Positions 1,948-16,765 of a stretch of DNA of 64,000 nucleotides are shown here, in pieces. The stretch's first letter is position 1. Each line of letters begins with the position of its first letter. This stretch comes from Phycisphaerae bacterium (GTDB lineage Bacteria; Planctomycetota; Phycisphaerae; Phycisphaerales; Phycisphaeraceae): contig JAUHZU010000009.1 of the NCBI GenBank assembly GCA_030425705.1, forward strand, positions 62,001 to 126,000, read 5' to 3'. Position numbers and translations under genes: made by a program. The notes under the pieces are model-generated. The model was not told where the DNA came from. It was given only the letters and a program-made list of their open reading frames with translations, and did not search any database.

Positions 1948-3162
1948 ATGGGTGATTCGGACCGCGATCCCGACCCGAACGATCCGAAGGAAGTCTTCGC
2001 GGCGGTGCAGACGCTGGCGGACGGGCTGGGCTTTGCGCTGAGCGGTGTCGCCCCGGCGGAGCGGTCGGCGTATGCGGGCCACTTCGAGCGGTGGCTGGCG
2101 GACGGCAAGCACGGAGAGATGGGCTACCTCGCCGACCACGCGGCGGTGCGGGTGGACCCGGGGCAACTGGTGCCGGGGGCGAAAGCGGTGGTCGTGGTCG
2201 CGGATGCGTATCCGGGGGGTGAGGGGCCGAGGGGTCAAGGGGCCGAGGGGCCAAGTGAGGGGAAACGAAACACTCCAGGCGCGCAGCACTCGGCCCCTTG
2301 GCCCCCTGACCCCTCGGCCCCTTCGGGCCGGATCGCCAAGTACGCGCACGGCGGCGACTACCACAAGACCATCAAGCAGCGCCTGCACGCCATGGCCGAC
2401 GCCTTACGCGAGGCCTACCCCGGCCATGACTTCCGCGCGACGGTGGACACCGCGCCGATCTTCGAGCGCGAGCTGGCGACCCAGGCCGGGCTCGGCTGGA
2501 CGGGCAAGCACACGCTGATGATCCACCCGCGTCACGGCTCGTACTTCCTGCTGGGCACGCTGGTCACGACACTGCCGATCACGACCAGCGAGACGCTGGG
2601 CTACCCCGCCCCGCTGTCGCCGCCGACCGACCACTGCGCGGCGTGCACGCGGTGCATCGAGGCATGCCCGACTGACGCGATCGCGGCCGAGGGCTACTCG
2701 GTCGATGCCCGGCGGTGCGTCAGCTACCTGACGATCGAACACCGCAGCGCGATCGACCCGTCGCTGTTCGCCGGGATGGGCGACTGGCTCGCGGGGTGTG
2801 ATGTGTGCCAGGACGTGTGCCCGCACAACCGCCGACGGCTGGCGGGCAACGACCCGCCCGGTCCCGACGGCCGGCCGCTGCCGATCCACCCGCGTTACAT
2901 GGCGGGCAGCCGTCCGACGCTGCGGCTGATCGACATCCTCCGCTGGACCGAGGAGGATCGCCGACGCGTCCTGCAGGGGTCGGCGCTCAAGCGGATCAAG
3001 CTCGCCATGTGGCATCGCAACGCGCTGATCGCGGCGGGCAACGCCCTGCGGTCGTGCGACGACGCGGCGCTGCGCAGACGCATCGCGGCGATGGTGGATG
3101 ACACAGCACTGGCCGAGATGGTGCGAGAGACCGCACGCGAGGTGTTAAAGCAGCTCGGCTAG
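1948..3162 (+). CDS. queG: Epoxyqueuosine reductase QueG
   Basis: Cobalamin-dependent enzyme that reduces epoxyqueuosine to queuosine in tRNA, the last step of Q synthesis. The protein has 404 residues from the ATG at 1948; an in-frame upstream start at 1897 adds a non-conserved leader. Visible motifs are RIAKYAHGGDYHKTIKQRLH, the substrate/corrin region DTAPIFERELATQAGLGWTGKH, and two [4Fe-4S] Cys clusters, CAACTRCIEACPTDAI and CDVCQDVCPHNRR. The C-terminal part (GSALKRIKLAMWHRNALIAAGN) resembles the HEAT-like tail. Residues 92-126 (EGPRGQGAEGP... to ...PSAPSG) are encoded by a palindromic insertion at 2221-2323 in a loop just before the conserved RIAKYA block; this stretch is Pro/Gly-rich and not expected in the family. 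Confidence 0.95.
   Translation: MGDSDRDPDPNDPKEVFAAVQTLADGLGFALSGVAPAERSAYAGHFERWLADGKHGEMGYLADHAAVRVDPGQLVPGAKAVVVVADAYPGGEGPRGQGAEGPSEGKRNTPGAQHSAPWPPDPSAPSGRIAKYAHGGDYHKTIKQRLHAMADALREAYPGHDFRATVDTAPIFERELATQAGLGWTGKHTLMIHPRHGSYFLLGTLVTTLPITTSETLGYPAPLSPPTDHCAACTRCIEACPTDAIAAEGYSVDARRCVSYLTIEHRSAIDPSLFAGMGDWLAGCDVCQDVCPHNRRRLAGNDPPGPDGRPLPIHPRYMAGSRPTLRLIDILRWTEEDRRRVLQGSALKRIKLAMWHRNALIAAGNALRSCDDAALRRRIAAMVDDTALAEMVRETAREVLKQLG
2221..2323. repeat. 103-bp palindromic element inserted in frame in queG
   Basis: Two 37-base arms (2221-2257 and 2287-2323) are inverted copies matching at 33 of 37 positions; all four differences are transitions. They flank a 29-base loop. Each arm is built from the words GAGGGGCC and AAGGGGCC. 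The element starts exactly on a codon boundary of queG and adds about 34 residues without a stop. It resembles, in behaviour, palindromic elements known to insert in frame in protein genes (such as Rickettsia palindromic elements), but I cannot assign it to a named family. Confidence 0.85.
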
Positions 3163-3226
3163 CCGCCGCGTCACACGCGGTGGTTTTTCACACAGGCAGC
3201 GCCCCGCCGCGTGTGACGCGGCGGCT
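3161..3226. terminator. Perfect 20-bp inverted repeat, probable bidirectional terminator
   Basis: The 20-base arm at 3161-3180 (AGCCGCCGCGTCACACGCGG) is repeated as an exact reverse complement at 3207-3226, with a 26-base loop that contains TTTTT. It begins one or two bases inside the queG stop codon and is followed by AAAA. It sits between two convergent genes, so a shared terminator is the simplest reading. The length and perfection of the arms also fit a dispersed repeat unit. Confidence 0.65.
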
Positions 3227-16723: not shown

Positions 16724-16765
16724 CCCCCGACCGAGACCCGAAACCCCAGACCGAAACCCGCTTCC

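Follow-up and report, generated by a model that had tools for sequence, protein, structure and literature searches.

A palindrome lying in frame within a planctomycete queG gene is one of a dispersed octamer-array family with probable ties to intervening-sequence protein elements

The queG gene of a Phycisphaerae bacterium contains a palindromic segment which stays in frame and recurs across the bacterium's own genome (G000). The segment is very probably one copy of a mobile, MITE-like palindrome without a transposase, which would be translated with its host gene in the manner of the Rickettsia palindromic elements (RPE). Comparison of sequences also makes it fairly probable that this family descended from elements carrying the gene of the 23S rRNA intervening-sequence protein (IVP, S23p). 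The two propositions held together, a mobile translated palindrome and IVP descent, are favoured to the same degree.

In the window (the whole stretch of 64,000 nucleotides that was analysed) queG, encoding epoxyqueuosine reductase, was identified from the ORF list at 1948-3162 on the plus strand, and its product scores as QueG with TIGR00276 (269.8 bits). The left arm of the palindrome (2221-2257, plus strand) consists of four RAGGGGYC-type octamers (2222-2253) followed by AGTG (2254-2257). It is separated by a spacer of 29 nucleotides (2258-2286, plus strand) from the right arm (2287-2323, plus strand), which is an inverted copy of the left arm, starts with CACT (2287-2290), continues with four octamers and reads QHSAPWPPDPSAP. 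The end of the spacer together with the start of the right arm forms GCGCAGCACT, the spacer mark of the family. As stated in the first-pass annotation, 33 of the 37 bases of the arms are complementary, the four mismatches are all transitions, position 2221 is the first base of a codon in the frame starting with the ATG at 1948, and this frame remains open across the palindrome. The mismatches are confined to transitions because the octamer consensus RAGGGGYC varies at R and Y. A repeat finder returned arms of 36 nucleotides (2222-2257 and 2287-2322, 92%), and as single-stranded DNA the segment was predicted to fold with -43 kcal/mol (z = -5.5 relative to shuffled sequences). Partner octamers of the left and right arms did not resemble each other more closely than non-partner octamers within the element did (permutation p = 0.41). 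There is therefore no sign of active upkeep of arm pairing, and maintenance of the arms by pairing was rejected as an explanation.

The insert lies between a stretch ending in ADAY and the RIAKYA block of QueG. In the solved QueG structure 5d08 the gap matching this site is located approximately at residues 108-122. The element, with its length of about 105 bp, corresponds to 35 codons, but the loop is longer by only about 23-24 residues than in two other members of the genus, G002 and G003 (53 residues in the compared stretch of G000, 29-30 in those of G002 and G003). Since the gain in loop length is smaller than 35 codons, part of the native loop seems to have been deleted or exchanged at the insert.

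The canonical form of the element is about 105 bp long and is composed of GA, four AGGGGYCN octamers, AGTG, a spacer of about 29 nucleotides, CACT, four NGRCCCCT octamers and TC. Within the family the spacer varies between about 9 and 45 nucleotides and often has the end GCGCAACACT. The complete genome of another member of the genus (G001) contains many more copies than G000: a pattern of three octamers gave 163 matches there, compared with 4 for the reversed control. In the loci fetched from G000 and G001 there were 54 element-like places. A sister type is built from the octamer AGTGGYCN, and G001 contains both the GGGG and the GTGG type; the matches listed for G000 were of the GGGG type, and those in the more distant G030 were nearly all of the GTGG type. 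Like MITEs, the elements are short, dispersed, bounded by terminal inverted repeats and free of a transposase ORF. No transposase was seen between the octamer arms at the loci examined; IVP genes do occur there. At one locus of G001 (L144:2060-2250 and 2525-2670) an octamer element lies within the spacer of another, and two such composites are found in a single ORF. In G000 a copy is located in the RNase P RNA gene, where the class A model places about 90 extra nucleotides in the terminal loop of P12 (L005:1503-1591, 241.6 bits). Rfam matches to the element hairpins were, RNase P itself excepted, confined to microRNA families and fell below threshold.

The distribution of the octamer pattern is patchy: 22 of 400 genomes of the order had at least six matches, and most had none. 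The proposal that the element might represent a new family of planctomycete type restricts it too far, as octamer arrays of a similar kind were detected in Nitrospirae, Deltaproteobacteria, Thermodesulfovibrionia and others. The exact pattern including the spacer mark had no matches in the genome and viral collections scanned. The broader octamer pattern also catches plain tandem octamer repeats (e.g. in Nocardia), and these were excluded from the elements.

In G000 and G001 together, 31 copies lie within ORFs, and in none of them is a stop codon read. The hosts of most copies were recognised by family models (PriA, MutS, HscA/DnaK, acetate-CoA ligase, LeuRS, ValRS, RuvB, glutamate synthase, SNF2 helicase, PutA, NadA, AtpG, Tgt, PurL, a RarA-like AAA protein, chorismate synthase, Mfd, MiaB and QueG); three host ORFs had no family name. 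The encoded peptides are alike across copies: their left-hand portion reads, for example, GPRGQGAEGPSE, and their right-hand portion QHSAPxPLDPSAP. In 22 of 25 copies the outermost T of the right arm falls on the third codon position, and of the three exceptions two may be artefacts of how the ends were located; the left arm occurs in all three codon phases. Among 24 marked copies 20 are oriented one way, two (one of them weakly marked) the opposite way, and two are undecided. The p-values for phase and orientation overstate independence, as the copies in ruvB, priA, mutS, putA and perhaps queG are shared by descent between G000 and G001. Stop codons do not account for the bias in phase and orientation because the other frames are open about as often. 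Since the octamer period renders the arm peptides nearly equal in every frame, the phase lock is more likely due to selection acting on the peptide of the spacer, or to the manner of insertion at the right end. The same reading of the right arm was found in G030 in CarB (two cases), a pseudouridine synthase, an SNF2 helicase and queG. The segment had originally been taken for a protein-tolerated palindromic element of the Rickettsia type, and the search for further copies, which were found in G000 and its relatives, many of them in genes and in the same phase, supports this assignment.

As anticipated, the queG genes of the close relatives G002 and G003 lack the segment, and element-free sites were also found in other genes. 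In acs, leuS, valS, nadA, tgt, rarA and purL the segment is absent in G000 and, where the gene was found, in G002 or G003, and the second site of mutS is filled in G000 and empty in G002 and G003. Next to the inserts, the native loop usually lacks a few residues. No target-site duplication was definable among these relatives, which are diverged by approximately 20-25% and have rearranged loops. The nesting at L144 and the presence or absence of elements across the genus argue for mobility.

The QueG loop, which varies across the order, is an insertion hotspot. It carries GTGG-type elements in G001 and G030, an unrelated GGGAGAGGG-type palindrome, also in frame, in G013 (L038) and G057 (L050), and a heptamer array in G019. 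The queG insertion of GGGG type in G000 and that of GTGG type in G001 may be either independent or shared: their spacers align, but other copies of the family elsewhere have that spacer too.

Arms of the same kind surround IVP genes. In G001 (L136, 3147217-3147673) two GTGG arms enclose an ORF of about 120 amino acids, which is a 23S rRNA intervening-sequence protein (PF05635, 123.5 bits; TIGR02436, 118.5 bits). This protein has a weak match to the retroelement protein Avd, and its nearest solved structure is 2gsc. An IVP gene between such arms was also found in another member of the Phycisphaerae (L207), in a deltaproteobacterium (L243, with the unit AGGGGTC) and at L265. A stretch of 20 nucleotides starting from AGTG in L243 is identical to the mutS element of G001; this single match between the spacers and IVP elements is short and A-rich, and is suggestive of a common spacer origin.

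Inverted flanking arms with a score of at least 18 were detected at 29 of 43 distinct IVP loci (loci with enough flanking sequence, mostly from this order). Nearly all had a period of 7 or 8, and the unit varied by locus (GGGAGTC, AGGCACGA, AGTTTCG, GAAGTGAC and others). None of 1500 random window intervals used as controls scored above 15.5. Among control ORFs of similar size 24 of 2016 reached 18, and all 20 of those listed were loci of RAYT (REP-associated tyrosine transposase) genes, which are themselves mobile. IVP genes were present in 21 of 22 octamer-rich genomes, compared with 153 of 378 others (p = 1.7e-7, with genomes counted irrespective of relatedness). A second array family behaves similarly: the heptamer GGGTYTN flanks two IVP genes of G000 on both sides and, in a less exact form, one IVP gene of G001, and it is dispersed, with 106 matches in G000 and 164 in G001 versus 6 and 17 for the reversed control. 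In the window, outside the queG element, it is represented by a one-armed degenerate array just after a stop codon (16730-16753, minus strand). As octamers and GGGTYTN were both found in both settings, at least two array families of the genus occur with and without IVP. The queG copy has no IVP ORF between its inverted termini, and none of the IVP genes of G000 has AGGGGYC arms. The occurrence of IVP elements in frame within host proteins was considered and rejected, as the long ORFs examined have an IVP domain at their end, the part upstream of it being read-through.

A mobile translated palindrome could also be unrelated to IVP, if IVP genes merely prefer or generate similar arrays. This is a possible but doubtful alternative, to which the prevalence of octamer copies without IVP and the wide differences between the arm units of IVP elements lend some weight, and the shared architecture could come from a general mechanism building palindromic arrays. 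It does not sit well with the occurrence of the same octamer unit with and without IVP in G001, L207 (G199), L243 and L265, with the same behaviour of the GGGTYTN unit in G000 and G001, or with the much higher frequency of IVP in octamer-rich genomes. That the palindrome is of the REP type and is moved by RAYT is rather improbable. RAYT genes are present in G000, G001 and their relatives, and REPs tagged with GTAG or CGTC are known from within ORFs, DNA repair and tRNA-related genes being prominent among their hosts, with an insertion in recB at about the same site in two species (PMC3733652). However, neither tag is found at the foot of the octamer hairpins, most of which have the termini GGAAGGGG and CCCCTTCC; octamer arrays flanked none of the 11 RAYT loci examined, some of which have different inverted flanks of their own; and G002 and G003 possess RAYTs but almost no octamers. 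RAYT was rejected as mobiliser of the octamers, since none of the RAYT loci examined has flanking octamers.

Two further explanations would dispense with translation of the insert or with mobility. The insert might be missing from the mature product, either because ribosomes bypass it or because an RNase III-type activity cuts the hairpin out of the RNA, as happens to the intervening sequences (IVS) of 23S rRNA. The stem is long and well paired enough for RNase III, IVS elements are cut from 23S precursors (PMC4990558), and the RNase P copy could be processed in the same way, but excision without rejoining would destroy an mRNA, and neither process requires that all 31 copies in protein genes be in frame and stop-free with one phase preferred, which makes this explanation very improbable. 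Hardly to be credited is a local origin, in which a native low-complexity loop expanded by slippage and template switching into a palindrome: although the arms are tandem octamers and the QueG loop varies across the order, the unit, the AGTG inner boundary and the spacer mark are found again at dozens of otherwise unrelated loci, whether in genes, in intergenic DNA or in an RNA gene, and elements are nested in one another.

The favoured reading, a mobile translated palindrome derived from IVP elements, suggests the following course of events. The palindrome would have inserted into a permissive loop of QueG and would be translated as a segment of about 35 residues, rich in Pro, Gly, Ser and Ala and probably unstructured, which the enzyme presumably tolerates. 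Copies in genes would persist only where length and frame fit, damaging insertions being lost; the spacer, which gives a hydrophilic peptide in its favoured frame, has probably had an additional influence on orientation and phase. The octamer family would most likely be the non-autonomous form of elements that hold the gene of the IVP/S23p four-helix bundle (PF05635) between like arms, and these IVP-bearing elements would be relatives of the 23S rRNA intervening sequences. Mobilisation may occur in trans by IVP or, perhaps, by host functions acting on palindromes; both this step and the derivation from IVP elements are less certain than translation and tolerance of the insert.

Three known systems bear comparison with the family. 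The RPEs (Ogata et al. 2000, 2002; summarised in PMC10969869) are in-frame palindromes of Rickettsia. By their description they resemble the present copies in size (about 100-150 bp), in lying in frame within many unrelated genes and in encoding a conserved peptide; they differ in host phylum, and the regular tandem-octamer arms and the link to IVP genes are features of the elements described here. The IVS of Coxiella burnetii, long suspected of being mobile, combines an S23p ORF with a terminal stem of 28 bp and heptamers of the sequence GACAGAT (PMC4990558). Points of likeness are the inverted terminal stem, the IVP ORF (here in the full-length relatives), the tandem heptamers upstream of the Coxiella ORF and an insertion site in the helix loop of a structural RNA, which in the present case is P12 of RNase P. 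In contrast, the queG copy lacks an IVP ORF, the present copies are situated in protein genes, between genes and in RNase P, and the arms are tandem arrays of 7-8 bases whose unit changes between elements. The intragenic REPs of Opitutus terrae, Rickettsia conorii and Xanthomonas (PMC3733652) share the location of palindromes in ORFs and the insertion at the same site in related genes, and the lists of host genes (DNA repair, tRNA-related) look alike on inspection; they are distinguished by the GTAG or CGTC tag and the RAYT association, neither of which applies to the much longer octamer-period arms.

Descriptions of in-frame palindromes in core proteins have so far come chiefly from Rickettsia and from a small number of REP-rich bacteria. 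Such palindromes are now seen in planctomycetes of the Phycisphaerales type in about twenty core genes, with element-free sites within the genus, and annotators should be aware that such proteins carry foreign loops. It is the IVP connection that would surprise specialists, as it bears on a decades-old question: what IVP does, where the 23S rRNA intervening sequences come from and whether they move. The question becomes testable because a concrete element (arms, spacer and IVP) and non-autonomous copies can now be assayed. In the literature covered, which was partial and thus weak evidence of novelty, no report was found that joins IVP genes to dispersed palindromic arrays of 7-8 bases or to palindromes in genes. 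A wider proposition is put forward only tentatively: IVP/S23p genes and palindromic arrays of 7-8 bases might constitute one widespread class of transposase-less mobile elements, in which the unit changes while period and palindromy stay, IVP acts as mobility factor, and copies without IVP have colonised both proteins and structural RNAs across several phyla, the 23S rRNA intervening sequences being a special case.

Some observations were made alongside. In valS of G001 (L123:2787-6728, minus strand) the reading frame of valyl-tRNA synthetase includes a whole RAYT domain (NF047646, with the HVH motif kept), which has GGCACAGGCATCCTGCCTGTG-type hairpins of its own at its flanks. A RAYT domain occupies the same loop of ValRS in four genomes from two families (G001, L123; G352, L167; G338, L174; G334, L175) and belongs to at least two RAYT lineages; the ValRS of G000 and G002 is without it. 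Reading by eye revealed a further insert, TSRDREGADPG...LPDGRGSS, at about residues 827-872 of the G001 ValRS, which seems to be an in-frame palindromic repeat of yet another, third kind within that protein. In the window, a GC-rich inverted repeat (GCCGCCGCGTCACACGCGG...) lies directly 3' of the queG stop codon at 3161-3226 and is possibly a terminator or a further repeat family; the spacer of L014 holds a similar motif.
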